48,215 nucleotides of DNA from Bacillota bacterium (GTDB taxonomy: Bacteria > Bacillota > Desulfitobacteriia > Desulfitobacteriales > JAJXUE01): positions 1 to 48,215 of the forward strand of contig JAJXUE010000020.1 of assembly GCA_021783135.1 (NCBI GenBank), given 5' to 3'. The notes beneath the pieces are model-generated. The model was not told the DNA's origin, ran no database searches, and saw only the letters and a program-made list of their open reading frames with translations. This document shows positions 5,473 to 46,249 of the stretch, one piece after another; within the stretch, counting starts at the first letter, position 1, and the number at the start of each line of letters is the position of its first letter. The position numbers and the translations under genes were made by a program.

Positions 5473-6324
5473 ATGCTAACAGTTAGTCAATTAATTAAGG
5501 AATTTGGCTTTGAAGTGGCAGCGGGACACGGGGGCCTGAATAAAGAAATTAGGGATTACAGTATCAAACGCCCTAGCGCGGAGCTAATAGGTTTCTTAAC
5601 TTATTTAACGCCACAACGGATTCAGGTCTTCGGTTCTACAGAAATGGGCGTAATCCGGCAGCTGGATATAACGGTGCGCCGTCAACATATTGCCGCTGTC
5701 ATGGTGTCCGAAGTGCCTTGCGTGATCGTTACTCGCAGCCTGCCCACGCCGCAGGAATTCTACGATTTAGCCAATGAACGGGATATTCCGCTGTTAACAA
5801 CAAATCGCTCCACCACCCAATTAAATTACTTAATCATAAGGTACCTAGCCAACCGATTGGCTCCCAGCACGCTCGTCCACGGTGTCCTGGTCGATGTCTA
5901 TGGCGTTGGAGTATTAATCAACGGTGAGAGTGGTATAGGTAAGAGTGAGGCGGCTTTGGAGTTAATTAAGGGTGGTCATCTTTTAGTAGCCGACGATGCA
6001 GTGGAAGTGCGCCGGGTGGATGAAGAAAGCCTCAGGGGCACAGCGCCGCAATCCATTCGGCATTTGATCGAAATTCGTGGCTTGGGCATTTTGGACATTA
6101 CGCGCTTATTTGGCACCGGGGCTGTCCGCAAGGAAAAGGATGTTCATTTAATAGTTCATTTGGAAGAGTGGCAGGCCGATAAGATCTATGACCGCTTAGG
6201 AACTGATCCACCGCAAATCCGCAGAATTTTGGGAATTGCAGTGCCACAGATCACCATTCCGGTGCGCCCGGGGCGCAATCTAGCTTCGCTAGTTGAAGTG
6301 GCAGTGATGCAAAATAGGCGGTAA
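5473..6324 (+). CDS. hprK: HPr kinase/phosphorylase
   Basis: A 283-residue bifunctional HPr(Ser) kinase/phosphorylase. The C-terminal P-loop domain shows Walker A GESGIGKS at 151-158, the acidic pair in LLVADDAVEV, and the family signature EIRGLGILDITRLFG. The N-terminal half matches the usual regulatory domain ending in a conserved HG pair near residue 136. I prefer the ATG at 5473, whose residues MLTVSQLI resemble family starts, over the ATG 12 bases upstream. It senses fructose-1,6-bisphosphate, ATP and phosphate, and phosphorylates Ser46 of the HPr encoded two genes upstream. A hairpin terminator follows at 6381. It is slightly shorter than the usual ~305-310 residues. Confidence 0.93.
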   Translation: MLTVSQLIKEFGFEVAAGHGGLNKEIRDYSIKRPSAELIGFLTYLTPQRIQVFGSTEMGVIRQLDITVRRQHIAAVMVSEVPCVIVTRSLPTPQEFYDLANERDIPLLTTNRSTTQLNYLIIRYLANRLAPSTLVHGVLVDVYGVGVLINGESGIGKSEAALELIKGGHLLVADDAVEVRRVDEESLRGTAPQSIRHLIEIRGLGILDITRLFGTGAVRKEKDVHLIVHLEEWQADKIYDRLGTDPPQIRRILGIAVPQITIPVRPGRNLASLVEVAVMQNRR

Positions 6325-6380
6325 AGCCAGCGGTTTGTGGTAACATTACGCAAGTAGGAAATTTAAGCCTAGTATTTTAG

Positions 6381-6412
6381 CTCCGGCTCAATAATGGTAG
6401 CCGGAGTTTCAA
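6381..6412 (+). terminator. Rho-independent terminator after hprK
   Basis: CTCCGGCT at 6381-6388 pairs with AGCCGGAG at 6399-6406 around a 10-base loop, followed by a short T-rich tract. It lies about 60 bases after the hprK stop codon and separates the PTS genes from the sulfur operon. Confidence 0.7.
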
Positions 6413-6481
6413 TTTGTTCCAGTGCTGCTAATGCTGTGTGTAACGCCAAGGTTTTAGTTTGTAAAAAGGCCAATTAGTCTA

Positions 6482-6510
6482 TTGACTGTTAGATAACAGC
6501 ATGCTATTAT
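6482..6510 (+). promoter_or_regulatory. Sigma-A promoter of the sulfate assimilation operon
   Basis: TTGACT at 6482-6487 and TATTAT at 6505-6510 are separated by exactly 17 bases, an almost consensus vegetative promoter. Transcription would start near 6517, giving a leader of about 120 bases before the sulfite reductase gene. It is the only strong promoter seen ahead of the sulfur genes. Confidence 0.7.
6486..6499. promoter_or_regulatory. Palindromic operator candidate within the sulfur operon promoter
   Basis: CTGTTAGATAACAG is a perfect 6-base inverted repeat around a central GA. It overlaps the last bases of the -35 box and fills most of the -35/-10 spacer. A dimeric repressor bound here would block RNA polymerase. 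The identity of the regulator is unknown; CymR- or other sulfur-status regulators are possible but I cannot match a known box. Confidence 0.45.
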
Positions 6511-6636
6511 CATACCCATACCAATTAAACATAGTAAACAGAGCGGAAATACATACATTAACAATAAACCAATGTGCCTAGGAGCCGCTGATATTTTACG
6601 ACTAGACTATAAAAATAGACAGAGGAGAAAAAGACT

Positions 6637-7503
6637 ATGGCCAAAGCAGATTACACAGAACTTAAACGGGGCGGCTTTATGCGTCAGGTGCAAAAGGATT
6701 GCTTTTCGATGCGTTTGCGCACTGTAGGAGGCAAAATTGAGGCTGCTCATTTAAGCAAGGTATACGATATTGCGCAAAAGTATGGCGCGGGATATATTCA
6801 CTTGACGGCACGCCAAGGCATCGAGATTCCCTTTATAAAATTAGCTGATGTCGAGCAAGTTAAACAGGAACTGGCCGTTGTCGGACTGCAACCGGGGGCT
6901 TGCGGGCCTAGAGTGCGTACAGTTACGGCATGTCAGGGAATAACCATCTGCCCGAGTGGACTTTTTGATACCTTAGCCCTAGCTCAAGAAATTGACCAAA
7001 GGTATTTTGGTCTTGAGCTGCCGCACAAATTTAAATTTGGGGTTACAGGGTGCCGTAACAACTGCTTGAAGGCGGAAGAAAATGACTTAGGTATCAAAGG
7101 GGGCGTGGAGCTAAGTTGGCAAGCTGACAAGTGCAGCTTTTGTGGGTTATGTACCGCGGTCTGTCCTACACAGGCAATTGATGTGCTTAAGGCAGCTAAA
7201 GATTTGGTATTTAGGCAGGACGATTGCGTTAACTGCGGCAAATGTGGCAAGAGTTGTCCTGTTGGAGCCTGGGAAGGAACAAATGGCTACGTTTTGGCTT
7301 TTGGGGGTACCTTGGGCAACAGCATCGCAATGGGTCGCGGGGTAATACCCATCCTGCAAAATAAGGCTGACTTATTCAAGGTAATTGACGCTACGCTGGC
7401 CTTTTTTCAAGCTAAGGGCAAGCAAGGGGAACGCTTTCGACTCACCTTGGACAGGGTGGGCTGGGAAGTATTTATACAAAGTATACAGGAGGTTTTAGCA
7501 TGA
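6637..7503 (+). CDS. Siroheme sulfite reductase with two ferredoxin clusters (AsrC-like)
   Basis: A 288-residue redox enzyme. The siroheme/[4Fe-4S] ligands C99-X5-C105 and C139-X3-C143 (TACQGITIC and TGCRNNC) are intact. A bacterial ferredoxin insert follows with CSFCGLCTAVCP (C166-C176) and CVNCGKCGKSCP (C197-C207). This is the arrangement of the small anaerobic sulfite reductases related to AsrC and DsrAB, which reduce sulfite to sulfide using electrons from ferredoxin-like partners. It heads the sulfate assimilation operon and overlaps the TusA-like gene by four bases (ATGA). A nitrite reductase role cannot be excluded from sequence, but the neighbours (APS reductase, CysD, CysN) argue for sulfite. 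Confidence 0.85.
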   Translation: MAKADYTELKRGGFMRQVQKDCFSMRLRTVGGKIEAAHLSKVYDIAQKYGAGYIHLTARQGIEIPFIKLADVEQVKQELAVVGLQPGACGPRVRTVTACQGITICPSGLFDTLALAQEIDQRYFGLELPHKFKFGVTGCRNNCLKAEENDLGIKGGVELSWQADKCSFCGLCTAVCPTQAIDVLKAAKDLVFRQDDCVNCGKCGKSCPVGAWEGTNGYVLAFGGTLGNSIAMGRGVIPILQNKADLFKVIDATLAFFQAKGKQGERFRLTLDRVGWEVFIQSIQEVLA

Positions 7504-7745
7504 GCACTCAAGCGGCAGATGCCTGTGTGGACATAACCGACGTAGTTTGTCCGATTACGTATGTTAAAGCTAAGGTGGCGCTGGAGGAATTGGCCCCGGG
7601 TAAAGTTTTGGCAGTTAGGATGAAGGCTGGCGAGACTATACAAAATGTGCCCCGCAGTTTTAAAGATGAGGGACACAAAGTTGTGCAAGTAATCAGCAAT
7701 GAGGATAACACCTATACTGTTTGGGTGGAAAGGGATGGATTATAA
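7500..7745 (+). CDS. TusA-family sulfur-carrier protein
   Basis: An 81-residue TusA-like protein with the core DITDVVCPITYVKAKVALEEL. The Cys lies in CPIT rather than the more common CPxP. It carries the conserved GETIQNVPRSFKDEGHKV segment typical of the subgroup found beside anaerobic sulfite reductases. It probably carries persulfide sulfur from, or presents sulfur to, the sulfite reductase. It overlaps the upstream gene by four bases, and its stop codon overlaps the start of the decayed sulfhydrylase gene (TAATG), so it was part of a translationally coupled series. Confidence 0.8.
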   Translation: MSTQAADACVDITDVVCPITYVKAKVALEELAPGKVLAVRMKAGETIQNVPRSFKDEGHKVVQVISNEDNTYTVWVERDGL

Positions 7746-8000
7746 TGCGCTTTAATACTGCCCTACTGCATGGCGCTTATGAGGCTGACGCATTGACTGG
7801 TGCCACCACAGCCCCGATTTACCAGAGTACTTCCTAAGAGCACAAAAGTGCGGAGGAACTCGAACAAACCAACTAGCTCGGCGTTGGAAAAAAAGAATCG
7901 CCTTCTAACCAGTGGGCGGAAATTCTTCCCTGCAGCGGTATCTATGGTGGGACAGTGTCCTTGTTTAAGAAACTCCAAAATAATGGTATCTAAGGTTACT
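7745..8000 (+). pseudogene. Remnant of an O-acetylhomoserine sulfhydrylase / cystathionine gamma-synthase family gene
   Basis: The ATG at 7745 begins a good PLP-enzyme N-terminus (NTALLHGAYEADALTGATTAPIYQSTS) and then hits TAA at 7835. The same frame continues with EHKSAEELEQTN, a second stop, and later SGIYGGTVSLFKKLQNNGI, which resembles the family's central SGIYGGT-SLF region. Roughly 60 residues between these blocks, and everything after about 7990, are missing. It is therefore a decayed gene with point nonsense changes plus internal and 3' deletions. An intact copy would have used the sulfide made by the upstream reductase to form homocysteine. Recognition is by motif only. Confidence 0.75.
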
Positions 8001-8057
8001 AAGGTCTTTTTTTTACTACTAAAACCAAGTAAACATATATGAAAATGGTGATATAAG

Positions 8058-8666
8058 ATGGCGCAAACAAACAACTTGTCTTGGCATAGCGAGCTAGTAA
8101 CGCGGGTGGAACGGGAACAACTTCTGGGTCAACGGGGCAGAGTAGTTTGGTTTACCGGCCTGTCCGGCTCGGGCAAATCCAGCTTGGCGCATGCCTTAAA
8201 CGCGAAGTTACATGCGATGGGGCTGCTGGTCTATACCTTGGACGGTGATAACATCCGCCATGGCCTGAACAAAAACTTGGGATTTGCTGTAGCCGATCGC
8301 AATGAAAATATTCGCCGTATCGGCGAAGTTGCTAAGTTGATGGTTGACGCCGGTATTATAGTCTTGGCAACGTTTATTTCGCCGCTGCGCGCGGAGCGAG
8401 AAGGCTTGCGGCATATTTTGGCGCAAGACTTAATTGAAGTATTCGTGGATTGCCCCTTAGAAGTGTGTGAAAGCAGGGATCCGAAAGATTTATATAAAAA
8501 GGCCAGGGCAGGTGCAATTGCCGATTTTACGGGAATCAGTTCTCCCTATGAGGCACCGCTAAATGCCGACTTAGTTATTAATACGGCAGCAGCGCCACTG
8601 GAAGAATGTGTGGCAGAGCTGGTGGATTTTTTGCAAATCGCACCTACAGGAGAAAACCATGTTTAA
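8058..8666 (+). CDS. cysC: Adenylylsulfate (APS) kinase
   Basis: A 202-residue APS kinase with the P-loop GLSGSGKS at 34-41, the segment TLDGDNIRHGLNKNLGF, NENIRRIGEVAKLM, and FVDCPLEVCESRDPKDLYKKARAG. It phosphorylates APS to PAPS using ATP. It follows the decayed sulfhydrylase and overlaps the AprA-like gene by 8 bases. A separate APS kinase beside an APS reductase is curious, because the latter uses APS directly; the PAPS may serve sulfation or be a remnant of an alternative route. Confidence 0.93.
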   Translation: MAQTNNLSWHSELVTRVEREQLLGQRGRVVWFTGLSGSGKSSLAHALNAKLHAMGLLVYTLDGDNIRHGLNKNLGFAVADRNENIRRIGEVAKLMVDAGIIVLATFISPLRAEREGLRHILAQDLIEVFVDCPLEVCESRDPKDLYKKARAGAIADFTGISSPYEAPLNADLVINTAAAPLEECVAELVDFLQIAPTGENHV

Positions 8667-34395: not shown

Positions 34396-34404
34396 GAGAT
34401 TATG

Positions 34405-35415
34405 ATGAGTAAAGAAGTAATTGGTCTTAGCTTTCATAGTATGGACACCTTAGTGGAAGTTCGCGCCATCGCTGATCGCCACAGTGAGGAATTTAAAGCC
34501 GCATTGCAGCAGACGCCGCAATGGTTTGCGCAGGTAGAAGACTCAGTCAGCCGGTTCAAACCCGGCACTGAATTAAGTCAGGTGAACCAAGCCAACGGAG
34601 GCACCTTTGCAGTATCCCCTATATTTCTCACCCTGATGGAACAATCGCTTCAGGCGGCACGTCATACCGGCGGGATATTTAATCCCACCATTGTCGACTG
34701 TCTCGTCAACTCCGGGTATAAAAAATCATTCGGGGCAATCTCCGGGAAATCCTCGGGCAGGAAGATTCTAAGCGTGCATCAGCCTGTTGCCGAGTCGCAA
34801 AATAGACTTTTAACGGATTGTGAAGCTATAAAAGTAGATGTAGAGCAGGGAACAGTTACCCTGCCGCCGGAAGTGGGACTTGATTTTGGCGGGATTGCCA
34901 AAGGTTGGGCTGTAGATCAATGCTTGACTAATTTGCTCGCCTTGGGTAAAGATGCGGAAATCTGCGTTAATGCGGGAGGAGATTTGCGTCTGTATTTGCC
35001 AAAAGGCGGCGAAGCTTGGCAGATTGATATTCAAAACCCCTTTGATCTTACTAAGGATCTTGCTGTAGCTTGTCTACAAGCAGGTGCCGTAGCTACATCT
35101 TCAGTATTAAAGCGGCGTTGGTGGTCTGGCGGGAGCTACAAACACCATATAATTGACCCGCGGACAGGACAGCCGTCTGAGAGCAACATTGTGGCGGCAA
35201 CTGTAATTGGTCCGACGGCTATGGAAGCTGAGGTGTGGAGTAAGACTTTGTGTATCCTCGGTGTGGAGGAAGGCTTTGCGTTGCTCGACCGTCAAACCGG
35301 GTGGGCGGCCTTATCCATCTTAAACAATGGGCAAATAATAATTAATCGGCAAATGGAGGGGATTACCAGTGTCACAGACGCTAGCTTTGCCATGGCAGTT
35401 CATATCGCCGGCTAA
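34405..35415 (+). CDS. apbE: FAD:protein FMN transferase (ApbE)
   Basis: A 336-residue ApbE-family protein. Family segments are FHSMDTLVEV, VSRFKPGTELSQVNQ, TGGIFNPTIVDCLVNSGY, GLDFGGIAKGWAVDQCL, VNAGGDLRL and YKHHIIDPRTGQPS. It attaches FMN to Thr or Ser of target proteins using FAD and Mg. No typical lipoprotein signal is present, so this copy may be cytoplasmic. I prefer ATG 34405, with AGGAG six bases before it, over the adjacent ATG at 34402. It overlaps the following membrane heme protein gene by 47 bases. Confidence 0.92.
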   Translation: MSKEVIGLSFHSMDTLVEVRAIADRHSEEFKAALQQTPQWFAQVEDSVSRFKPGTELSQVNQANGGTFAVSPIFLTLMEQSLQAARHTGGIFNPTIVDCLVNSGYKKSFGAISGKSSGRKILSVHQPVAESQNRLLTDCEAIKVDVEQGTVTLPPEVGLDFGGIAKGWAVDQCLTNLLALGKDAEICVNAGGDLRLYLPKGGEAWQIDIQNPFDLTKDLAVACLQAGAVATSSVLKRRWWSGGSYKHHIIDPRTGQPSESNIVAATVIGPTAMEAEVWSKTLCILGVEEGFALLDRQTGWAALSILNNGQIIINRQMEGITSVTDASFAMAVHIAG

Positions 35416-35950
35416 TTATTGGTATTTTTCTCGGGCTGCCGGAATTGTAGCTTACGTTTTTATCTGGAGTTGTGTATTTACGGGCATATTACTGAAAACT
35501 AAGTTCGTAAAAAAGCTGGGAATAGCGGCGGAAGTTAATTCCGCCCATAATGCCAGCGCGCGTTTGGGATTTTATTTTGTGGTATTTCACATCACAGTTT
35601 TGTATTTCGATAGCACGGTTGGGAGTCAAGTAGGCCAAATGCTCTGGCCGGCCATGAGCCACGTAGAAAATGTGGGGAGCGTGGGCTTGGAAATCGGTAA
35701 ATTCGCCCTGTATGCCATGGTGGTTCTGGGCGTGGGATTCTTCACCATGCGCAAACACCAAGCGGTTGTCAGGCTGCTGCATTTACTCGCTTATCCTGCT
35801 TTTTTCCTGGCACTCGGACATGGGATATTGCTGGGAACGGATCGAAACCTTGCCTGGCTGCAAATGCTGTATTGGTTTACCGGCAGCGCCGTAGTTATCG
35901 CTGTGTGGCTCAGAGCTATGACCTATTTTGCCCAACCGCTAGAAGCTTAA
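35369..35950 (+). CDS. Ferric reductase-like transmembrane heme protein
   Basis: A 193-residue integral membrane protein with about six hydrophobic helices and conserved His positions (SAHNASARLGFYFVVFHITVL, RLLHLLAYPAFFLALGHGILL), the layout of ferric reductase-like/MsrQ domains that hold two b hemes. It probably passes electrons across the membrane. The start is GTG 35369 inside the end of apbE, preceded by GAGGGGA. Linked to ApbE, it may work with a flavinylated protein in extracytoplasmic electron transfer, but no flavin-carrier gene is visible here. Confidence 0.82.
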   Translation: MSQTLALPWQFISPANYWYFSRAAGIVAYVFIWSCVFTGILLKTKFVKKLGIAAEVNSAHNASARLGFYFVVFHITVLYFDSTVGSQVGQMLWPAMSHVENVGSVGLEIGKFALYAMVVLGVGFFTMRKHQAVVRLLHLLAYPAFFLALGHGILLGTDRNLAWLQMLYWFTGSAVVIAVWLRAMTYFAQPLEA

Positions 35951-36006: not shown

Positions 36007-36846
36007 TTACTGCAATATATCAATGTCAGGTTTATTGGGGTCAGCTGGGTCGGGGCTTTGATAGGGGGCATCATTGCCGTTGCCACTCACGAAGGACCGC
36101 GCGCGATCTGCCCAGGACATGCCCCCTTCAACTGAACGCACAGCTACGGAGTGGAGGTTGTTGCGGGCTGACGGCCAGAGCAAGAAAGCTACAGCGGATG
36201 CGCCAATGCCCCAAAGAAACCCTTTGCGCTGACCGACATTCAGCATGCTTGACATCCGCCCCCATACCCCTGTTGTGTTGCCGGGTTTGGCCTCGATGCG
36301 TTGGATGACATCTTTCAACGGTACACCCTGTTGATTGGCCTCAAGGGCGATGGACTCCGCGATGGCTCTGGTCTGGGGGTCAGTCACGGGAGCTCTGCTT
36401 TGGGCGCTGTGGATAGCTTGCAACTCGCGGCGTAAATCGCCGCGGATGTTGTCTAAAGTGCGATAACGCTCATCTACCATACGGTTAAGGTTTGGATCGG
36501 CAAGGACTTGGCCATAACCCGCTGCTTGGGCGAATTTAGTTGCTCTCTGAGCCTCAATTTCGGCCATTAGTTCTTGCTTGATACTGTCAACAATGGTGCG
36601 ATTGTATGGGGCGACGGTGGAGTAGGGGTTGCCATAGTTATTGCCATAGAGCTCTTCGCCTAGTTCAAACATCACTTCTTGTTTGACCTGATTTAAATCG
36701 TTATAATCAGGCCAGGTTCGATAATTCCAACTGCCGTTAGGGCGGGTGTAATTTGGCGTATAGCCATATGACGAGTTTCCGTTTTGCAGTTCGCGCAAGA
36801 TTTCGCGTTTAACATCTTGTTTGAGAGCTGCTTTGGTGTTCTGCAA
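36007..36846 (-). CDS. KQEV-motif repeat protein with C-terminal membrane segment, 279 residues
   Basis: I do not recognise a named family. Four copies of a short amphipathic helix motif lie at about 6-22 (LKQDVKREILRELQ), 51-64 (LNQVKQEVMFELGE), 85-99 (IVDSIKQELMAEIEA) and, weaker, 131-145 (LDNIRGDLRRELQAI), separated by Tyr/Asn/Pro-rich linkers. Residues ~205-226 (GQRKGFLWGIGASAVAFLLWP) are a glycine-containing membrane helix, followed by ADRARSFVSG and an acidic tail. The start is TTG 36846 after GGAGTG. It lies 12 bases downstream of the 163-residue repeat protein gene. The C-terminal module resembles that of the protein encoded at 45395-45874. Confidence 0.75.
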   Translation of the reverse strand: MQNTKAALKQDVKREILRELQNGNSSYGYTPNYTRPNGSWNYRTWPDYNDLNQVKQEVMFELGEELYGNNYGNPYSTVAPYNRTIVDSIKQELMAEIEAQRATKFAQAAGYGQVLADPNLNRMVDERYRTLDNIRGDLRRELQAIHSAQSRAPVTDPQTRAIAESIALEANQQGVPLKDVIQRIEAKPGNTTGVWGRMSSMLNVGQRKGFLWGIGASAVAFLLWPSARNNLHSVAVRSVEGGMSWADRARSFVSGNGNDAPYQSPDPADPNKPDIDILQ

Positions 36847-36858
36847 TGATACTCACTC

Positions 36859-37350
36859 CTAGTCTTTTTGGATTTGCTGCGGCTGCCGCTGAAGGTCGAA
36901 CATCACCTCCTGCTTGATTGCTTGGACCATGGTTGGATCACTATAATAACGGGTTTGATAATCATACCTAGAATGTGGCCGGTTGGCGTGGCTTTCTTGT
37001 TCTGCCTCCAGCTGGGCCAGCACGTCTTGTTTAATAGCTTCGACTAATGCGCGGTCCGGATACGCCGGAGTTGCATGATACGGATGAAAGTTGGGGGCAA
37101 TAGATTGGGGGTATATTTGTCTTGGCGCTGGTTGGAACTGTTGGCGGTAGAGGTGTTCAGAGTTTTCCTGCTGCAATTCCCAGAGGACTTCTTGTTTAAC
37201 CATGGACAATAAAGCATTGTCACCGTACGAACTGCTTGTCTGTGCAGGATAGTTTGTTACTCCATAGGACCGACTTTGTTGTTGCAGTTCAGCCAAAACC
37301 TCGTGTTTGACGTCTTGGGCTAAAGATTGACGAGTTGCATTCTTGTGCAT
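36859..37350 (-). CDS. KQEV-motif repeat protein, 163 residues
   Basis: I do not recognise a named family. The same helix motif occurs four times: residues 10-24 (LAQDVKHEVLAELQQ), 47-61 (LLSMVKQEVLWELQQ), 102-116 (LVEAIKQDVLAQLEA) and 141-155 (MVQAIKQEVMFDLQR). Linkers are rich in Tyr, Gln, Ser and Pro. There is no membrane segment. The ATG at 37350 follows GGAGGT. It forms a two-gene unit with the 279-residue protein and lies directly downstream of the P-type ATPase gene on the same strand, separated by a terminator. It may act as a multivalent scaffold through the repeated helices; this is inferred only from the repeat pattern. Confidence 0.75.
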   Translation of the reverse strand: MHKNATRQSLAQDVKHEVLAELQQQSRSYGVTNYPAQTSSSYGDNALLSMVKQEVLWELQQENSEHLYRQQFQPAPRQIYPQSIAPNFHPYHATPAYPDRALVEAIKQDVLAQLEAEQESHANRPHSRYDYQTRYYSDPTMVQAIKQEVMFDLQRQPQQIQKD

Positions 37351-37520
37351 AACATACCTCCGAAAATAAAATTAATCACCAATGGCTTACGTGCCAAGTT
37401 CGCTCGCGCTATCACCAGCCTTCCCGGTTAAGTCCGATATGTAGCTGCAGGCTTAACAATCGTATATAGTTTTTAGGCAAATTCCCTTTTTTATACATCA
37501 TGCTGTGAATGAAGTTAGGC

Positions 37521-37547
37521 TAAAGGCCTGAGGTTAAGCCTCAGGCC
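37521..37547 (-). terminator. Terminator overlapping the stop codon of the minus-strand P-type ATPase
   Basis: GGCCTGAGG (37525-37533) and CCTCAGGCC (37539-37547) form a perfect 9-bp stem whose 5-base loop contains the TAA stop codon of the ATPase gene (37534-37536). On the minus strand TTTAGCC follows, so the T-tract is short. Confidence 0.65.
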
Positions 37548-40500
37548 CTTGACCTAAGAGGGCAACTGGTTGAGCGGGTCCTGGCAGCCTGCGTTGCCCC
37601 CTAGTTGATTCCAGCTTGGCGAACCAGGTATCGAGTCTGCTGACAAAACTGGATGTAAAGCCGATTAAGGCCCAATCGGCAAGACCCATGGGGATGGTAG
37701 AGAACAAGGGACGAATTACCGGTACGTACATGGTCAGTAACAACATGCCGGTGGATAAACCGGCGGCCGGCAAAATATAAGGGTTAACGGCGGTTGAAGC
37801 TAAGCGAAGTTGGGTGCGGCGGGTGTCAAACAGACTGAAAACCCTGCCCATGACCAAGTGGGAAAAGGCCATGGTTCTGGCCTTCATGGGAACCCAACCG
37901 TAAGCTAATCCACCGGCATAAACTCCAAAGGTAGTTAAGCCTGTCAAAATTCCTTTGCGGATAATTTCTTTTTTATTTTGCGCGGAAAATCTTTGTTGCG
38001 GTTTTAGCGGCGGACGATTCATGCACTCCGGGTGGGGGGGATCACCCGTTAAGGCCATTGCGGGAACTCCCTCTGTGACCAGATTTATCCACAATATTTG
38101 CGGTGGGAGTAAGGGTGTCGGCAATCCTACAACCGCAGCCAAAAAGACTGCGAGGACTTGGCCTACGCTGCCGGATAGGACGTAGCGTACCGACTTAGTC
38201 AGGTTCTCCCCAACTGTCCGGCCTTCCTCGATCCCGGCGACAATAGTGGAAAAATTGTCATCACTAAGTGTTATGCCGGCGGCCTCCCGTGTAACATCAG
38301 TTCCGGCTATGCCCATGGCGACCCCGATATCGGCTTCTTTAACCGCCGGAGCGTCGTTGACGCCGTCGCCGGTCATAGCTACAATGTGGCCGCGGTGTTT
38401 AAGTGCTTGGACAATGCGTAATTTTTGATCGGGTGAGGTGCGGGAGTACACCACGATCTTATCGACTTGAGCCTGCAAAGCTGCTTCAGAAAGTTGATTA
38501 AGGTCCGTCCCGGTTATGCTCGCCCCGGTAGCCAATATACCTAATTTGGCGGCAACTGCCTCTGCGGTTTTGTGATGGTCGCCCGTTATCATCACAACTT
38601 TAATTCCGGCGCGATGACACTTGCTGATGGCGTATTTAACGCCTGGACGCGGCGGATCAACCATCCCTAATAAACCGGCAAATACCAAGCCTGTTAGGTC
38701 ACAAGCAGCGGAATCTGTATCAGGCGGTAAAACCTTCCAGGCGGTAGAGATGACACGCAGAGCCTTACCAGCCATAGAATCGTTATTTAACAAAATATTG
38801 CGTCGGGTTTTGATGTCTAACGGAATTAAGCCGTCACTGGACCAAATATAACTGCAACGTTCCAACACGGTGTCTACAGCACCTTTCACATAAATGTAAT
38901 TTGTTCCGCTAGCATCGCGGCAAACCACACTCATCATGCGCAAGGTTGAATCAAAGGCAGTTTCATGCTCGCGGCAATGCTCCCGGCGCAGGTCTTCCCA
39001 CCACAGCCCGGCTTTGGCGGCAGCTGCCACCAAAGCTCCTTCGGTGGGATCGCCGATCATTTCCCAAAGGCCGTTGGCGCCGCGGCGTAATTCAGAGTTG
39101 TTGCACAGAGTGCCGATGGTCAGAGTTGTTATTAAGTCTGGAAATGCCTCCGGTCGGATAACTTGTTGGTGGTAGAGTAATTTTCCTTGGGGTTGATAGC
39201 CCTCACCGCTTACTTCGAAGGTGGCGGACGGCGTGAATATTTCCGTGACTGTCATTGCATTTTGGGTCAAGGTCCCAGTTTTGTCGGTGCAGATAATGGT
39301 GGTAGAACCAAGCGTTTCCACAGCCGGCAGGCGACGTACGACAGCGTTGCGCTTGACCATTCTTTGGACACCGGCGGCTAGGGCCACTGTCACTACTGCC
39401 GGTAGTCCCTCGGGAATTGCACCAACGGCCAGACTTACTCCGGTGCGCAGTATTTCTAAAATCGGCCGGCCTTGGATGAGGTTGAGTATGGCGATAACAC
39501 TGACAGAGGCGGCAACTACGGCGGAGATACTCTTGCCCAGTGCTTCCATTTGTTTTTGGAGTACTGTAGGTTCTGGCGTGACGTTTTTCAACAGACTGGC
39601 GATCTTGCCCATCTCTGTTTGCATGCCGGTATAAATTACTACTGCCATGCAACGACCGCCGGTTACCATGGTGCCGGCAAAAACCATATTTTCGATATCC
39701 CCAATTGATTGACTCCGGTGGGTGCAAATCGTAGTGCTTTTGGCGACGGCAAGGGACTCCCCTGTTAAACACGATTCATTAGCGGTGAGGTTGACAGCCT
39801 GTAGTAATCTGGCGTCGGCCGGAACCCTGTCGCCGGCTTCGAGAGAGATAATGTCACCGGGCACCAGAAATTTGGCAGCCAATTTATTAAGTTTGCCGGA
39901 TCTGAGGGCATTTGCAGTCGGGGCGCTTAGCTCTTGTAAGGCTGCCAGTGACTTTTCCGCCCGGTAACCCTGAACAGTCTCAATTACTGCCTGGAGGCCA
40001 ACTATTACTACGATTACCAGCGCATCCGAAAATTCCCCAACGATTAAGGATACCCCGGCTGCAAGTAACAGTAGTTTCGGCATAAAACCTCGCAGTGGCT
40101 CCAGGAGCATTTGCCCCAGGGATGATTTAGGTTTTACAGCCAATTGATTATAGCCGTAGAGGCGTAATCTCTGTACGGCTGCTGCAGTTGTCAAGCCCAG
40201 TTCTTCGTTAGCTTGCAGACGTCTAAGCACTTGTGGCGTATCCAGTGCATGCCAGGGTATTTTGCCTGGCGTGGCAACGGGAGGGGTTACTGCGCAAGCT
40301 GCTGTGGGAGCAGGCTTAAGCTGGGTACGCCTGGTTTTTCGGTTTACAGGCAAACCCCACATTTCGCCTAAGAGCATGGCGATGTTGACTTTATCACGCT
40401 CGTAATATAGCAAAATCCGGCCGGAAACCGGGTTAACATAACCTACCTTGATACCGGATAGCTTGCTCAGACGGTAAGCGAGACCGCGGGCCATGGTTTG

Positions 40501-40593
40501 GTTGCCCTGCAGGCCGGGAACGCTCACACGCAGACGTCCTGGCAATAAGTGGATATATGATTTGTCGCCTTCCGCTTGAACTTTTATCGACAT
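37534..40593 (-). CDS. P2-type cation-transporting ATPase with N-terminal PGRLR (HMA-like) domain
   Basis: A 1019-residue P-type ATPase. Residues ~14-75 form an HMA-like domain carrying LLPGRLRVSVPGL instead of a CxxC metal site. Then come the cation ATPase N-terminal domain, TGES (CLTGESLAVAKS), TM4 IPEGLPAVVTVALAAG, the phosphorylation site ICTDKTGTLTQN with Asp near residue 437, TGDHHKTAEAVA, GDGVNDAPAVKEADIGVAMG, and TM6 NLVTEGVPAMALTGDPP. PEGLP plus NLVT.G.PA match Ca2+-ATPase-type (PMCA/SERCA-like) transporters, so Ca2+ or Mn2+ efflux is likely. I start at ATG 40593 after GGGGAGGT rather than the ATG seven codons upstream. It is divergent from a second ATPase gene. Confidence 0.9.
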   Translation of the reverse strand: MSIKVQAEGDKSYIHLLPGRLRVSVPGLQGNQTMARGLAYRLSKLSGIKVGYVNPVSGRILLYYERDKVNIAMLLGEMWGLPVNRKTRRTQLKPAPTAACAVTPPVATPGKIPWHALDTPQVLRRLQANEELGLTTAAAVQRLRLYGYNQLAVKPKSSLGQMLLEPLRGFMPKLLLLAAGVSLIVGEFSDALVIVVIVGLQAVIETVQGYRAEKSLAALQELSAPTANALRSGKLNKLAAKFLVPGDIISLEAGDRVPADARLLQAVNLTANESCLTGESLAVAKSTTICTHRSQSIGDIENMVFAGTMVTGGRCMAVVIYTGMQTEMGKIASLLKNVTPEPTVLQKQMEALGKSISAVVAASVSVIAILNLIQGRPILEILRTGVSLAVGAIPEGLPAVVTVALAAGVQRMVKRNAVVRRLPAVETLGSTTIICTDKTGTLTQNAMTVTEIFTPSATFEVSGEGYQPQGKLLYHQQVIRPEAFPDLITTLTIGTLCNNSELRRGANGLWEMIGDPTEGALVAAAAKAGLWWEDLRREHCREHETAFDSTLRMMSVVCRDASGTNYIYVKGAVDTVLERCSYIWSSDGLIPLDIKTRRNILLNNDSMAGKALRVISTAWKVLPPDTDSAACDLTGLVFAGLLGMVDPPRPGVKYAISKCHRAGIKVVMITGDHHKTAEAVAAKLGILATGASITGTDLNQLSEAALQAQVDKIVVYSRTSPDQKLRIVQALKHRGHIVAMTGDGVNDAPAVKEADIGVAMGIAGTDVTREAAGITLSDDNFSTIVAGIEEGRTVGENLTKSVRYVLSGSVGQVLAVFLAAVVGLPTPLLPPQILWINLVTEGVPAMALTGDPPHPECMNRPPLKPQQRFSAQNKKEIIRKGILTGLTTFGVYAGGLAYGWVPMKARTMAFSHLVMGRVFSLFDTRRTQLRLASTAVNPYILPAAGLSTGMLLLTMYVPVIRPLFSTIPMGLADWALIGFTSSFVSRLDTWFAKLESTRGQRRLPGPAQPVALLGQGPEA

Positions 40594-40644
40594 CAAATAC
40601 CTCCCCAATGACACTTAGTAGGGTTATTGTGTGTAAAAAGCAAG

Positions 40645-40653
40645 TGGTATAAT
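40645..40653 (+). promoter_or_regulatory. Extended -10 promoter for the plus-strand P-type ATPase
   Basis: TGGTATAAT gives a consensus -10 with upstream TG. It lies in the short divergent region between the two ATPase genes. A candidate -35 (TTGTGT or TTATTG near 40624-40632) is poor. Confidence 0.5.
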
Positions 40654-40715
40654 CTCGATTTAGGCGGGAAATCTACGGAATGAATTATGTATGGGTTGGG
40701 AAGGGAGGGCTAGGT

Positions 40716-43700
40716 TTGCGGGTTATCCACTATTTGCCAGGAAGGTTGCGGGTGGAAATAAGTGCATTACGGCATGATACTGCACTAGCAAGGTGCTTAC
40801 AGCGCGAGTTAAGACAAGTTACTGGTATAGGCGCAGTACAGGTAAATCAGGTATCGGCCAGAATACTAATTGAATATTTTCCCAGTCAAGTAAATTGCCA
40901 CACTGTGCAAAAGTACATCGAACAATGCCTTGTAAGCGTGAAGTTGGAGTTTAAGCAGCAGGTCGAAATTGCGGTCGCAAGTGAGCAGATGCTGGCAATA
41001 GATGAATCGGGCAGTATGCCGTCGACACAACCGACGGAAATTGTGGCCACGCTGCAAACTGATACTCTTGACGGCTTGACTGCAAGTGAAGCTAGGCAGC
41101 GCTTTGAGCAGTATGGGGCAAATTTATTGCCGAGTACGGCACAGCCCACCATAGTGCATATTTTTATCCGAACGCTAACCGAAAGTTATATGAGCAAAGT
41201 TTTATTGGGTCTGGGCGCGTTTGCCCTGATAATGGGCAAACAGACCAATGCTATGATGAGTATCGGCGTGTTAATCGCCAATACAACGATGGCTGTTGTG
41301 CAAGAACACCGTACCCAAAACTCCTTGGACATGTTAAAAGAGTTAGTTCATACCAAGACCAGCGTGGTTAGAGATGGACAGAGTATGGAGCTGGAAGCAA
41401 GCAAATTGGTTCCGGGGGACATTATTACATTAGAGGCCGGCGATAAGGTCCCGGCAGATGCCTGCTTGTTAACAGCGACACAGTTGGTGGTGGAAGAGGC
41501 TTCATTGACTGGGGAATCCATTCCGGTAACCAAGGATGCAGCTGGCAAGCAGAAAGCGCGCTCCATCTATATGGGCACCGGTATACTCAGTGGCAGGGCC
41601 AAAGCAGTGGTGGTGAGCACAGGTCAAAACACGGAAATTGGACGTATTTCACGTACTATGATTATGTCACCCAGCCGTACTCCGTTTTATCAGCGCCTGG
41701 ACGAAGTATTTGTCAGTTTAGTCAATGGCGCACTGGTTATTAGCGGTGTTGCCGTTATGGCTGGATTGTGGCACAGGCAATCCGTCGGAAACATTATTGA
41801 AAGTGCGACCGGACTGGCGGTATCGTTTATTCCCGATGGGTTGGCACCTATTATCACGTTGGCCACGGCGTTAGGCGCGATGCGCTTGTTAAAGCAACAG
41901 GTCGCGCTGCGTCAGATGCCTGCCGTGGATACCTTAGGCTGTACTACAGTAATTTGTTGTGATAAGACCGGAACGTTGACGTGTAATAAAATGCAAGTGC
42001 AGGAAGTGTATTGCCCGGGGATGCACTGGCAGGTTAATGCGGGGAAATTCGTGGCGCGCGAGACGGTAAATCCAAGCGAAATATCGACCGAGATACCAAG
42101 TGAGATACCAAGTGAGTCGTTGCGTGAGCTGTTCCTAATCGCTGCAACATGTAATAATGCGCGGCTCACGGAGGACGGTGTCGGAGGCCTTAGCGGCACA
42201 GGCGACAGCACTGAAGTAGCTTTACTACTGGGGGCTCGCTGGGCAGGACTCGGGGAGCGGCGCGACAATGAAGTGTTGACGCGTCTGATGGAAATCCCAT
42301 TTAGTTCAGATAACATGTATATGGCAGTAATAGTTAGAGACAGCCAAGGGAGGGTGTGGTCTCTAGTTAAAGGTGCACCTGACATAATTTTGGCTAGGTG
42401 TACTTCGCTTAAACGCGGTCATAATATTATCCCCATGCACAGCGACTACAGGGCAGAATGTTTAGCTGAAATTCGCGCCATGTCCGGGCGTGCCCTTAGG
42501 GTGTTAGCGCTAGCTTTTAAACCTTGGCAACAAGGTGAGGGTGAAGCAACTGAGCTATGTTTTGGCGGGTTAGTAGGCATCATTGATCCACCGCGGCCCG
42601 AAGCGGCAGGTTTTGTTGCAAGTTGTCACAGGGCAGGTGTGCGGGTAGTAATGCTAACCGGTGACCACCGAGACACAGCCTTAGCCCTTGGGAGCATAAT
42701 CGGTATTACTGCCAGTGAGGCTCAAGTCGTAACGGGCAAAGAACTAGCGAGTATGGACCCGGAGGAGTTGGCGCGAGTGGTGCAAAAAGCGAGAATATAC
42801 GCTCGTACCTCTCCCGACCAAAAGCAGTACATAGTGCGGGCGTTAAAAGAACAAGGTGAAGTGGTAACCATGGTGGGTGACGGCGTCAATGATGTGCCTG
42901 CCATCAAAGAAGCGCATTTGGGAGTTGCGATGGCAACGGGGGGCACGGCAGTAGCACGCGAAAGCGCTGCGATTGCGCTGACTGACGATAACATTGGCGG
43001 TTTGGTAGAGGCGATTAAAGAGGGCCGCAATGTGTATGCGAATATTCGCAGAACACTGCGCTATATGATTACTACCAATTTTGGTGACGGTATCGTAATT
43101 TTACTTGCCGCAATTATGGGCCGCCCTATACCGCTGACTCCCCTGCAGTTATTGTGGTTAAACGCTACCAGTGATCCCTATGTATCTTGGTCCCTAGCTA
43201 ATTTTCCCCCGAGCAGCACCGCGATGGCGGAACCGCCGCGTAAAGCTGACGTTGGTATTTTTGCGCTCGGATTAGGAAGGAAAATCTTATCCCGCAGCGT
43301 GTGCTTAGGTATAAGTGCCTTCATGACCTATAGTCATTCAATCGCTGCAGGAGAAAATATTGATCTGACACGCACGCAAACTATGGCCGCGTTGGGGGTG
43401 GGACGGTTGCTGCATGTGAGCGATTTTTACCGCCGCCAAGGGGACAAGGCTGTCAATAAATACTTAGCTCGCGGTGGCTTGTCCATGGTAAGTGCATTAT
43501 TGGGTGCAACTTATCTGCCGGGCCTTGCGCCATGGCTGCATACTAGGCCGCTGCGTCTTCAACACTGGTATTCTGTTTTAGGGTGGTCAAGTCTGGGTTT
43601 TCTAGCGGACACAAGTTTCAACCGTTTAGTGACGGGGCGTAAATGGCGGCAGCAACAGGCGGCCGGAATTAAACAAGATCCCCAACGTGCTGATGTTTTG

Positions 43701-43718
43701 CAGTACAGCCATTCCTAG
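40716..43718 (+). CDS. Divergent P-type ATPase with N-terminal PGRLR (HMA-like) domain
   Basis: A ~1000-residue P-type ATPase. The N-terminal HMA-like domain contains HYLPGRLRVEISAL. The catalytic core is intact: TGESIPVTKD, ICCDKTGTLTCNK with Asp near residue 416, KGAPDII, MLTGDHRDTALALG and GDGVNDVPAIKEAHLGVAMA. TM4 reads IPDGLAPIITLA rather than PEGLP, and TM6 reads NATSDPYVSWSLA rather than NLVT.GLPA, so the ion-binding site differs from standard Ca2+ pumps. A TTG at 40716 has GGGAGG seven bases upstream and places the start just before the conserved domain; an ATG at 40680 in frame has a weak site. Its last 93 bases overlap the convergent pseudo-ATPase gene. Confidence 0.88.
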   Translation: MRVIHYLPGRLRVEISALRHDTALARCLQRELRQVTGIGAVQVNQVSARILIEYFPSQVNCHTVQKYIEQCLVSVKLEFKQQVEIAVASEQMLAIDESGSMPSTQPTEIVATLQTDTLDGLTASEARQRFEQYGANLLPSTAQPTIVHIFIRTLTESYMSKVLLGLGAFALIMGKQTNAMMSIGVLIANTTMAVVQEHRTQNSLDMLKELVHTKTSVVRDGQSMELEASKLVPGDIITLEAGDKVPADACLLTATQLVVEEASLTGESIPVTKDAAGKQKARSIYMGTGILSGRAKAVVVSTGQNTEIGRISRTMIMSPSRTPFYQRLDEVFVSLVNGALVISGVAVMAGLWHRQSVGNIIESATGLAVSFIPDGLAPIITLATALGAMRLLKQQVALRQMPAVDTLGCTTVICCDKTGTLTCNKMQVQEVYCPGMHWQVNAGKFVARETVNPSEISTEIPSEIPSESLRELFLIAATCNNARLTEDGVGGLSGTGDSTEVALLLGARWAGLGERRDNEVLTRLMEIPFSSDNMYMAVIVRDSQGRVWSLVKGAPDIILARCTSLKRGHNIIPMHSDYRAECLAEIRAMSGRALRVLALAFKPWQQGEGEATELCFGGLVGIIDPPRPEAAGFVASCHRAGVRVVMLTGDHRDTALALGSIIGITASEAQVVTGKELASMDPEELARVVQKARIYARTSPDQKQYIVRALKEQGEVVTMVGDGVNDVPAIKEAHLGVAMATGGTAVARESAAIALTDDNIGGLVEAIKEGRNVYANIRRTLRYMITTNFGDGIVILLAAIMGRPIPLTPLQLLWLNATSDPYVSWSLANFPPSSTAMAEPPRKADVGIFALGLGRKILSRSVCLGISAFMTYSHSIAAGENIDLTRTQTMAALGVGRLLHVSDFYRRQGDKAVNKYLARGGLSMVSALLGATYLPGLAPWLHTRPLRLQHWYSVLGWSSLGFLADTSFNRLVTGRKWRQQQAAGIKQDPQRADVLQYSHS

Positions 43719-45398
43719 CGGGGTAAGCGTGTTGCTTAGGCCAAGTGCCAGCCCGATGATGTTCGACCCCAAGCTAAGAGTGGTATTTTGCAGCGCAATA
43801 TGCATACCGGCTTGGGCTAGGGATCTAAGCCAAGCTAGGGTGCGGGGGTCCTGCCCGATGATGATGATGTTGGCAGACTCAAGGTTTAAATTTTCACTTG
43901 AACCAGCTGTAATACCTACATCTGCTGCAGCTAATGCCGGAGCATCGCCGGTGGCGTCGCCAATTACAGCCACTTTATGACCGTCGCATTGCAATTGGCG
44001 AACCATGGCTACTTTTTTGTCAGCGGTGCAGTTAGGTTGACAATCGCTGATCCTCAGCCGTCGAGCGGTTGTTTGCGTTTGGGCAGCATCTGCGTCGGTA
44101 ACTAAAGCAATGTGGGATACTTTAGCTAAGCGTAATGCGCGTACCATGCTTACGTCGTAGTTGTGGTGTGGCGGAAGCAGATCAAGTTGGGTAAACACGA
44201 AGGAGTTTGCTTTACTTATCGTTTCGACATGAATATCATCTTTAATTAATACGCCATGACAAGCTGCTTTGCTTGCAGCGGTACCTAAGGCTAGGGATGT
44301 CGCCATCCCCGCTGCTCCCGGTGCGCCCACTACCAACAGCATAATTGCTCGCCGCGTATCACCTGTTAACAGAAAGACACCGATTGCTGTCGTGAGCGAT
44401 GCTAAGGATATACGATGCATTAGGACGCTTATTTGATGGTCTAAGTGTGCTGATTTAGGGTGGCGCCGGAGCATGCTAAGGATGCGCCCGGTATATGTTC
44501 TTTGCCCGATGCGTTCTGCAACAATGTTAAGCTGCCCTTGCTGGAGGGTACTGCCGGCAAAAACAGCAGACCCGGCTGCGACTTTTTCAGGTATGGCTTG
44601 ACCTCTCAAGGGGTAGGGCTTAATTATGGCGGTGCCGCTCGCCACATGCCCGTCAACCGGAATGTTTTCCCCTGTGTGGACAATAACGGTTTGACCGTGG
44701 GTTAATTTGTGGCGCGAGATAATAATGGGCCCCTGCGGTGCGAATAACCTAACATAACGTTGCCTTCCAGCTAATAAGAACGCAATTTTGTCACGGGCAT
44801 GTTCTGCGGCAATAGTGCGTAATAAGGCACTTAAGTAGGTAAGAAAATGGATGAAGGCGCTGAGACTGTTTGCCTCGATAGTTAGTGAGCCTAAAGAAGC
44901 GATGCCGGAGAGCAACTCTGTACTCAGATGTCCTTTTTTGAGCAGGTGGTCTGTCGCAGTTTTAAAGATAGGATAACCGCTCAAGATGGTCAGGGCAGTG
45001 TTGGCGCGACGGAGGGGTTGGGCGTTATAGGTTGTGCTATACTTTTTAACTGAGTGTTTGCTACCGGAATATACAAATAATAGTCCTGAGGCTAGTGTCC
45101 AAAACAGCTGACGGACAATGGGCAGACTCTCCAGCTCTAACACAGTGTCAGGTACGGCATGTTGCGGACGCAAAACTACCAGACAACTCTTAACCTGCTT
45201 GATGACATTGGGCAGGGTTAACAATTGGGGCGGGTATTTCAACAGAAGACGTGCGCTCCGACAATCCACTTGGACATCGCTAATGACGCTGCTAGCGGTG
45301 AGTTCTTTGACCAGACGGGAAGCCAAATCAGGTCGGTGGTACAGTTCTGGCACTTCCAGACGTAAACGTCCTGGTAGATGATGCACAATGTGCATCAT
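43626..45398 (-). CDS. Catalytically dead P-type ATPase-like protein with N-terminal PGRLR domain
   Basis: A 590-residue protein built like a P1B-type ATPase. The N-terminal domain has HHLPGRLRLEVPEL. The transmembrane and actuator parts follow, with HTGENIPVDG recognisable. However the TGE loop reads Arg265-Gly-Gln, the TM metal motif CPC reads Ala359-Pro-Gly, and DKTGT reads FTQLDL with Thr403 replacing the phosphorylated Asp. Only ~83 residues separate this from GDATGDAPALAAADVGI, so the nucleotide-binding domain is missing. The open frame is intact and long, which argues against simple decay. It starts by a 4-base ATGA overlap with the upstream repeat-motif membrane protein gene. A regulatory or structural role beside the two active ATPases is inferred. 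Confidence 0.85.
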   Translation of the reverse strand: MMHIVHHLPGRLRLEVPELYHRPDLASRLVKELTASSVISDVQVDCRSARLLLKYPPQLLTLPNVIKQVKSCLVVLRPQHAVPDTVLELESLPIVRQLFWTLASGLLFVYSGSKHSVKKYSTTYNAQPLRRANTALTILSGYPIFKTATDHLLKKGHLSTELLSGIASLGSLTIEANSLSAFIHFLTYLSALLRTIAAEHARDKIAFLLAGRQRYVRLFAPQGPIIISRHKLTHGQTVIVHTGENIPVDGHVASGTAIIKPYPLRGQAIPEKVAAGSAVFAGSTLQQGQLNIVAERIGQRTYTGRILSMLRRHPKSAHLDHQISVLMHRISLASLTTAIGVFLLTGDTRRAIMLLVVGAPGAAGMATSLALGTAASKAACHGVLIKDDIHVETISKANSFVFTQLDLLPPHHNYDVSMVRALRLAKVSHIALVTDADAAQTQTTARRLRISDCQPNCTADKKVAMVRQLQCDGHKVAVIGDATGDAPALAAADVGITAGSSENLNLESANIIIIGQDPRTLAWLRSLAQAGMHIALQNTTLSLGSNIIGLALGLSNTLTPLGMAVLQNISTLGILFNSGRLLLPPFTPRH

Positions 45399-45874
45399 GG
45401 GCGCGGCGGCTCTGGTTGGTGAGTTTGTTCCGGGTCCATGAATTCTTTCTGCCAGCGATTAAAACTCGCTTCAGCCACGATGTCTTCCATGCCTTCTTTA
45501 GTACGCACTAGCATGGATTTTGCTCTATCGACAATTTCTGACCCATCTGTCACTGTTCTATTTACCAGTTTGCGCAGCTTAAGGTTGACTGAGGGTAAAA
45601 TCAAAGCACCTACGGCTACGGCGCCAAGACCATATAAAACCCCTTTGAATTGACCGTTGTTCAGAGCATTTGCCAGGCGCGCAGTTATACCGGGTTCGCC
45701 GGTTGGGGGTAGAGATGGAGGCACCCAGGTTGAGTTAGATGGTTGGCGGGAATTTGCTACTAGGGTACTGGCAATGTCGCGATAGGGGTCTGCCTGCCGC
45801 AATTCGTAGTTGGGCAAATCAGCTAGCACTGCTTGTTTTACACTTTCTACCAAGTCTCGCCGGTAAAATTCCAC
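45395..45874 (-). CDS. KQEV-motif membrane protein, 159 residues
   Basis: I do not recognise a named family. One helix motif lies at residues 8-20 (LVESVKQAVLADL), then a Pro/Ser-rich linker. A membrane segment at ~77-95 (FKGVLYGLGAVAVGALILP) is followed by a long charged helix (LRKLVNRTVTDGSEIVDRAKSML through EGMEDIVAEA). The segment around FKGVLYGLGA and the following DRAKS correspond to RKGFLWGIGA and DRARS in the 279-residue protein, so the two share this module. YtxH-like and DUF5132-like small membrane proteins have a similar outline; I could not test this. It overlaps the pseudo-ATPase start codon, implying coupled synthesis. Confidence 0.75.
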   Translation of the reverse strand: MEFYRRDLVESVKQAVLADLPNYELRQADPYRDIASTLVANSRQPSNSTWVPPSLPPTGEPGITARLANALNNGQFKGVLYGLGAVAVGALILPSVNLKLRKLVNRTVTDGSEIVDRAKSMLVRTKEGMEDIVAEASFNRWQKEFMDPEQTHQPEPPRP

Positions 45875-46015
45875 TGGTTATCACCTCTTGTTGCAAATCT
45901 AAATTAAGTTTGTACCAAATAACAGTAAATATACTTGGAGTGGGGTAAAGTTCTTGCATAATAAAGCGAGCGCAATGGAATTAATAGAGTATCTGTCGTA
46001 TGGAGGTTGATTATT

Positions 46016-46249
46016 ATGCAGCAAGATGCTACTTCGGAAATAAGGGTCAAGATGACGCAAGCGTTAGGTTTACTCAAAGAAGCGTTAAATATTAGCTTGC
46101 CTCTGTTACACACCAACCAAAAACAAGGTGTAATTGCAATTTGGGAAGGCTTTATTCGCGAGGTGGTTACCACTGTCAAGCGGAGATCCCATGAATCCGG
46201 CCTTAATTTACTTAGCTTCATTTCGTTTAAGCGGATTTGGCTAAAGTAA
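46016..46249 (+). CDS. Small hypothetical protein, 77 residues
   Basis: I do not recognise it. The sequence is largely helical and amphipathic (IRVKMTQALGLLKEALNISLPLL, then IWEGFIREVVTTVKRRS) with a basic C-terminus. There is no clear membrane helix. GGAGG lies nine bases before the ATG at 46016. It is transcribed divergently from the 159-residue repeat-motif gene and ends 17 bases before the convergent YetF-type gene. Whether it belongs to the ATPase cluster is unknown. Confidence 0.6.
   Translation: MQQDATSEIRVKMTQALGLLKEALNISLPLLHTNQKQGVIAIWEGFIREVVTTVKRRSHESGLNLLSFISFKRIWLK

Follow-up and report, generated by a model that had tools for sequence, protein, structure and literature searches.

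The window analysed here, 48,215 nucleotides of contig JAJXUE010000020.1 (assembly GCA_021783135.1, Bacillota bacterium), carries between positions 36007 and 46249 a cluster of P-type ATPase genes together with genes for proteins that share a recurring helix, the KQEV helix. Five of the genes (p159, p163, p279, the pump gene A1026 and sm80) form a module that recurs in a fixed order at ten other loci and that we hold, with high confidence, to be well supported. An earlier note on this DNA had described six genes, all of which are present as open reading frames (ORFs) where it had placed them; the set was incomplete in that a seventh gene, sm80, belongs to the module. The features of the locus, in window positions, are:

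36007..36846, minus strand: p279, ORF; putative PacL/FezA-like scaffold with N-terminal KQEV helices, a central helical domain and a C-terminal glycine-rich module with one transmembrane (TM) segment
36088..36234, minus strand: TM/glycine module of p279, residues ~205-253; recovered elsewhere by a profile from the KQEV loci
36859..37350, minus strand: p163, ORF; soluble, four KQEV helices with linkers predicted to be disordered
near 36883-36930, 37000-37047, 37165-37212 and 37276-37323, minus strand: the p163 helices, from motif positions
37534..40614, minus strand: A1026, HMA_2 plus P2-type cation ATPase (Pfam/NCBIfam), the module's recurrent pump
40366..40551, minus strand: HMA_2 (PGRLR) domain of A1026, domain match
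40680..43718, plus strand: A1012, second HMA_2 plus P2-type ATPase with intact catalytic motifs and IPDGL in M4
40716..40955, plus strand: HMA_2 domain of A1012, domain match
43626..45398, minus strand: psi590, HMA_2 plus FezB-like P1B pseudo-ATPase
44142..44186, minus strand: N-domain junction in psi590, from the alignment to full-length relatives
45225..45395, minus strand: HMA_2 domain of psi590, domain match
45395..45874, minus strand: p159, ORF; one KQEV helix plus TM/glycine module
45443..45682, minus strand: TM/glycine module of p159, residues ~65-144, contains KEGMEDIVAEASF
46007..46249, plus strand: sm80, small helical protein of ~80 amino acids (aa), core module member by its homologues at other loci

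To follow the module beyond this contig, we used a phylum set of 398 genomes and metagenome-assembled genome (MAG) contigs of a named collection as the sample. A search with p279 alone gave no match and one with the homologue alignment gave ten loci: full p279 homologues (34-48% identity in the ten loci) occur in five more genomes, from four families, of the 398-genome sample and on ten MAG contigs. Most of these are contigs reached by two routes (L078/L095, L079/L098, L080/L099, L081/L101, L082/L102 and L002/L094), and these six pairs plus L096, L097, L100 and L103 make up the ten distinct loci. As far as the contigs reach, the gene order is p159-like, p163, p279, HMA_2 P2-ATPase, sm80, with the p159-like gene divergent from p163 in 10/10 of these loci; the full order is intact in L079-L082 and L097, and contig ends cut L078, L096, L100, L103 and L002. 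Four-base overlaps join p163, p279 and the ATPase gene in L096 and L097, and sm80 homologues lie directly 3' of the ATPase gene in L079, L080, L081, L082 and L097. L002 is an exception in that its ATPase is a damaged fragment (3-609) on the far side of sm80; the module ATPase of L080 is broken into two frames (6180-8637), and both broken ATPases reflect either decay or assembly error. Genome G002 carries the module on a short contig, its ATPase reduced to a damaged fragment. Loci of a second ring (L083, L085, L086, L087 and L090) have p279-like and sm80 genes beside an ATPase of 1005 aa or a fused one of 1,528-1,636 aa, the sm80 homologues again adjoining the ATPase.

The co-occurrence is strict: p163 is found in six of the 398 genomes, with the ATPase adjacent in all six and never without an HMA_2 protein of this kind, HMA_2 itself scoring above cut-off in 46 genomes. 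In three of the p163 genomes the module ATPase is the sole HMA_2 protein. The chance of five out of five non-self genomes is ~1.5 in 100,000 by our own arithmetic, which treats genomes as independent; because two of the five share one genus, more weight falls on the gene order. The distribution is patchy, a sister genome (G001, 99% complete) having no HMA_2 or p279 match. The recurrent co-occurrence of repeat proteins and PGRLR-type ATPase for which the earlier note had proposed a neighbourhood search is thus borne out, and the module is not confined to this strain. The other module loci lack psi590 and A1012, and the recurrent module has one ATPase. The module is real and conserved and apparently undescribed: the open-access literature on DUF5132, DUF6110 and FUPA 24, outside which most subscription journals lie, yielded only PacL and two P-type ATPase papers.

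Two features tie the repeat proteins together, both of them first seen in the earlier note. Copies of a two-heptad KQEV helix (e.g. LVEAIKQDVLAQL) number four in p163, three in p279 and one in p159, and the motif pattern gave 85 matches across the homologue families, where 200 shuffles averaged 0.4. The glycine-rich membrane module is common to p279 and p159 (33% identity over 97 aa, expectation value (E) ~1e-11), and the alignment shows a KGFLWGIG and KGVLYGLG pattern, whose spacing differs from that of K9/G17/G20 in PacL (PMC13043812). A profile from the KQEV loci finds this TM module in one-TM proteins encoded beside FezB-type ATPases (L047, 8e-11; L046, 1e-7) and also in DUF5132-like proteins. 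AlphaFold2 gave four separate helices for p163 and, with similarly disordered linkers, an all-helical p279; neither model was reliable enough to search for similar folds. A ferritin-like nature of the central p279 domain was considered, and the match was not significant (E 0.67). p279, p163, p159 and sm80 are under purifying selection, with a ratio of nonsynonymous to synonymous substitution rates (dN/dS) of 0.06-0.16 between the two species compared.

Variants of the TM module occur elsewhere. In L088 (8904-9440) and L092 (8855-9517) it is fused behind a weak ferritin/rubrerythrin-like domain (Rubrerythrin, 6.5e-4 and 0.021) beside FezB-like ATPases, possibly as a membrane-tethered iron protein. 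L089 (8803-9162) and L091 (8264-8626) encode short proteins in which the TM module is joined to a coiled-coil tail, and the stretch examined contains no HMA_2 ATPase; a second p279-like protein of genome G279 (L084, 9242-10006) has no ATPase within the 18 kb examined.

The N-terminal PGRLR-type domain that the earlier note saw on three proteins matches Pfam HMA_2 (PF19991) in each (E 4.8e-9, 8.7e-12 and 4.3e-6), and A1026, A1012 and psi590 are the only HMA_2 matches in the 2.7-Mb genome assembly. A1026 and A1012 keep DKTGT, TGES, TGD and GDGxND (GDGVND in A1026) and match the Cation_ATPase_N and Cation_ATPase_C domains. Their nearest solved structures are Listeria LMCA1 and calcium ATPase type 2C member 1 (9euq, 6zhf, 7yag), the LMCA1 Ca2+-ATPase being the nearest solved relative of A1026 (E 4.4e-164), and their NCBIfam scores (673.5 and 524.5) fall under the cut-off of 798.3. 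At the M4, M5 and M6 positions, putative cation ligands on the model of SERCA, M4 reads PEGL in A1026 and PDGL in A1012 (Glu versus Asp), M6 of both keeps Asn plus an acidic residue (Glu or Asp), and M5 has Ser and Gln in A1026 where A1012 carries Asn and Asp. The substrate of both pumps is likely a divalent cation.

The earlier note had counted two complete ATPases and a dead copy. Two intact P2-type pumps and one dead protein are indeed present, but psi590 is no copy: by its alignments it is a FezB-like P1B ATPase, a different class from A1026 and A1012. Its residues 1-404 align to 1-418 of full-length FezB-like relatives and 419-590 to 556-728, leaving a gap in which ~130 residues of the nucleotide-binding (N) domain, plus DKTGT, are missing; 9 of the about 125 residues of this domain are left. 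The catalytic motifs are changed (CPC to APG, TGES to RGQA, DKTGT to TQLDL), and the actuator domain is retained despite RGQA in place of TGES. psi590 has no supported place in the ATPase tree. Together with A1012 it is a local addition, in this context seen only in this genome. The proposal that psi590 is a non-transporting partner of the pumps is not supported as stated, psi590 standing outside the recurrent module; the overlap with p159 and the long fused ATPases of other genomes suggest that it may be linked, physically or by regulation, to the pumps.

Both physical couplings in the earlier note, the ATGA overlap of the p159 end and the psi590 start (45395-45398) and the 12-base gap between p279 and p163 (36847-36858), follow from the ORF ends. 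A Shine-Dalgarno-like AGGAGTGAG precedes the TTG start of p279, a start backed by homologues, and a similar AGAGGTGAT precedes the GTG start of p159. An Rfam scan of the locus gave no match, and promoter and terminator scans did no better than on shuffled sequence. The 3' ends of A1012 (plus strand) and psi590 (minus strand) overlap antisense by 93 bases (43626-43718). Adjoining the cluster, an ApbE flavin transferase gene overlaps a small membrane cytochrome-like gene (34402-35950); the pair first looked ferrosome-related and was dropped, as it is not seen at other KQEV loci.

Dead and fused HMA_2 ATPases also occur in other genomes. L116 (5123-6904) and L117 (5743-7644), from two species of one genus, encode free-standing pseudo-ATPases of 593 and 633 aa without most of the N domain; both genes lie far from the module, and their dN/dS is about 0.19 with dS near saturation. 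In a 714-aa FezB-like group (L040, L043, L052 and L053) DKxPS replaces DKTGT, and dN/dS is about 0.13, indicating purifying selection; in L040 and L043, ATPases of 1,570 aa and small proteins of the DUF5132-like and sm80-like kinds are encoded nearby. The actuator domain is missing instead in L087 (613 aa) and in the N-halves of several ATPases of 1,500-1,700 aa. In the long ATPases of L083, L085, L086, L090 and L119 the N-half is homologous to psi590 or its FezB-like relatives and the C-half to A1012/A1026, and p279-like and sm80 genes adjoin four of the five. The free-standing 613-aa pseudo-ATPase of L087 has a P2-ATPase of 1005 aa nearby, and the tree joins it to the fused N-half of L119 (support 100). 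Dead ATPase groups are separate in the tree (support 99-100), which does not resolve the backbone and so gives no fixed count of independent losses. Plasmid records gave no p279 match and no full-length fused ATPase in any record. L044 (4708-8723) and L057 (6167-10187) carry genes for small HMA_2 proteins in a tandem row, accompanied by those for a FezB-like ATPase and a one-TM protein of 87 aa. As a broader and rather unlikely generalisation, one-TM scaffolds and a soluble helix-array linker might hold active HMA_2 P2 pumps and dead P1B-like 'pseudo-pumps' together as a platform or heteromer, the dead partner arising repeatedly by clean removal of the N or actuator domain and becoming fused into CtpI/CtpH-like giants.

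The best explanation of the locus, to which we assign a probability of roughly 0.55, is a platform in the cytoplasmic membrane on which cation pumps are scaffolded. In it, p159 and p279 would each place one glycine-rich helix in the membrane and self-associate there, as is thought for PacL/FezA-like proteins, and their cytoplasmic KQEV helices, which could pair by virtue of their heptad-like pattern, would do so with one another and with the four helices of p163. Because p163 is an array of pairing-capable helices without a membrane segment, its natural reading is that of a multivalent linker, which would gather the scaffold into clusters. A1026 as the core pump and A1012 as an added one would dock through the PGRLR HMA_2 domain and export a divalent cation of the Ca2+/Mn2+ class from the cytoplasm, with sm80 as a small helical accessory. 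psi590 might occupy a pump-like place as a non-transporting P1B-like subunit, as the degenerate N-half may do in the fused long ATPases. The role of psi590 and A1012 is the weakest part of this platform, because both are seen only here in this context. A pump-organising role of the repeat proteins matches, by analogy, the PacL/CtpC platform (PMC9374683, PMC13043812).

Several observations weigh against a platform of this kind. First, the C-termini of p159 and p279 (DPNKPDIDILQ and HQPEPPRP) are without a PacL-type metal-binding motif (DLHDHDH type); neither protein has a Pfam match to DUF1490 or DUF6110, DUF1490 is also absent from nine proteins of the p159 set, and the TM-module profile did not recover the DUF6110 protein of L055 at significance. 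Second, AlphaFold2 confidence is low (predicted template modelling score, pTM, 0.23 for p279 and 0.21 for p163), and the best full-length matches of psi590 reach ~28-31% identity, with no close relative. Third, the cluster genes form separate transcription units in both orientations here. Finally, HMA_2 as a docking domain is a guess made because it is present on every ATPase concerned. What the sequences show are the genes, their motifs, their recurrence and the lost catalytic residues, and binding, clustering, docking, substrate, direction and the role of psi590 are inferred.

An unlikely alternative is a ferrosome-like storage compartment, in which the membrane proteins would shape or mark vesicles, the pumps would fill them with iron or calcium, and p163 and p279 would form a coat. 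The TM module is also found in proteins encoded beside FezB-like P1B ATPases and, in L088 and L092, fused to the weakly matched ferritin/rubrerythrin-like domain, and both FezA and FezB are required for the ferrosomes of C. difficile (PMC12574912). Here, however, the sole FezB-type protein is catalytically dead, the pumps are P2-type and closest to Ca2+-ATPases, and p279 shows no significant ferritin-like match in its central domain. Neither a DUF6110-type FezA (Pfam, profile; the equation of FezA with DUF6110 is assumed from the DUF6110/P1B6 pairing (PMC9374683), not from FezA itself) nor a DUF4405 FezC (Pfam) was detected, a nearby TM protein matching cytochrome b561 weakly. It is equally improbable that psi590 and A1012 are gene-decay leftovers or recent insertions without a role and that only the five-gene module works. 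Their absence from other module loci and the loss of every catalytic motif tested in psi590 would fit such decay, but psi590 is an intact frame of 590 codons with one domain cleanly absent and its start overlapping the p159 end, and purifying selection acts on comparable dead ATPases in other genomes (dN/dS 0.13-0.19).

Quite doubtful is a heterodimeric pump in which A1012 (or A1026) works only with psi590 as its subunit, as the split counterpart of the long CtpI/CtpH-like ATPases. The two halves of those long proteins and the L087 pair of pseudo-ATPase and P2-ATPase lend themselves to this view, but the ten KQEV loci have a P2-ATPase or its start with no psi590 relative beside it, in three of those genomes it is the sole HMA_2 protein, the pseudo-ATPases of G198 and G279 that lack the N domain are encoded far from the module, and psi590 is unplaced in the tree. 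A chance neighbourhood of unrelated genes, with which the patchy distribution and the empty sister genome would agree, is rejected as extremely improbable because the gene order is conserved across several families, along with the strict p163-ATPase co-occurrence.

If the platform is real, its significance would lie in the second branch of ATPases. As far as we found, platforms gathering P-type ATPases are shown for PacL with P1B metal pumps only, and PacL/FezA-like proteins acting with a multivalent helix array on P2-type pumps would extend the idea; recurrence beside one pump in unrelated bacteria suggests an uncharacterised pump class assembled into organised membrane platforms. A degenerate P1B N-half in pumps of CtpI/CtpH architecture, present elsewhere as a separate protein, would make the odd size of CtpI/CtpH testable, and the module genes are small and should be expressible in a laboratory strain.

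Among known systems, the PacL1/CtpC effluxosome of M. tuberculosis (DUF1490) comes first. In PacL1 a single TM is combined with cytoplasmic repeats, and the protein gathers in membrane foci together with the P1B ATPase CtpC, whose stability depends on it; glycines and Lys are most conserved in its TM, whose conserved residues are required for assembly (PMC9374683, PMC13043812), and proteins of the related DUF6110 pair with P1B6 ATPases (PMC9374683). p159 and p279 resemble it in having one TM, cytoplasmic repeats and a P-type ATPase encoded alongside, and may share the Lys and paired Gly of the TM. Unlike PacL1, they have neither the DUF1490/DUF6110 match nor the metal-binding tail, heptad KQEV helices stand in place of the PacL Glu/Ala repeats, the helix array p163 is a separate soluble protein, and the pump is P2-type rather than P1B. 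With the ferrosome fez system the locus shares a FezB-like P1B protein with an HMA_2 start (psi590) and a small one-TM partner (p159) just upstream, whereas psi590 is dead (without N domain, DKTGT, TGES and CPC) and the active pumps are P2-type. The pumps share catalytic motifs with LMCA1/PMR1-type Ca2+-ATPases, and their putative M4/M6 ligand positions stay acid or amide, but they differ in the N-terminal HMA_2, the sub-cut-off NCBIfam score and, in A1026, the altered M5. CtpI and CtpH (FUPA 24, 3.A.3.24) have a P2-type C-half with PEGL and an N-terminal extension doubling their length (PMC3573892), and are counted among the uncharacterised pumps, possibly as a unique family of their own (PMC10654040). 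The long ATPases are likened to them by described architecture, and in these long ATPases the N-terminal extension is a degenerate P1B ATPase; at our locus, unlike in CtpI/CtpH, there are separate proteins of 590, 1012 and 1026 aa rather than a single double-length polypeptide. The module shows too few of the features that define a PacL or a FezA platform to be classed with either, but it may work like one.

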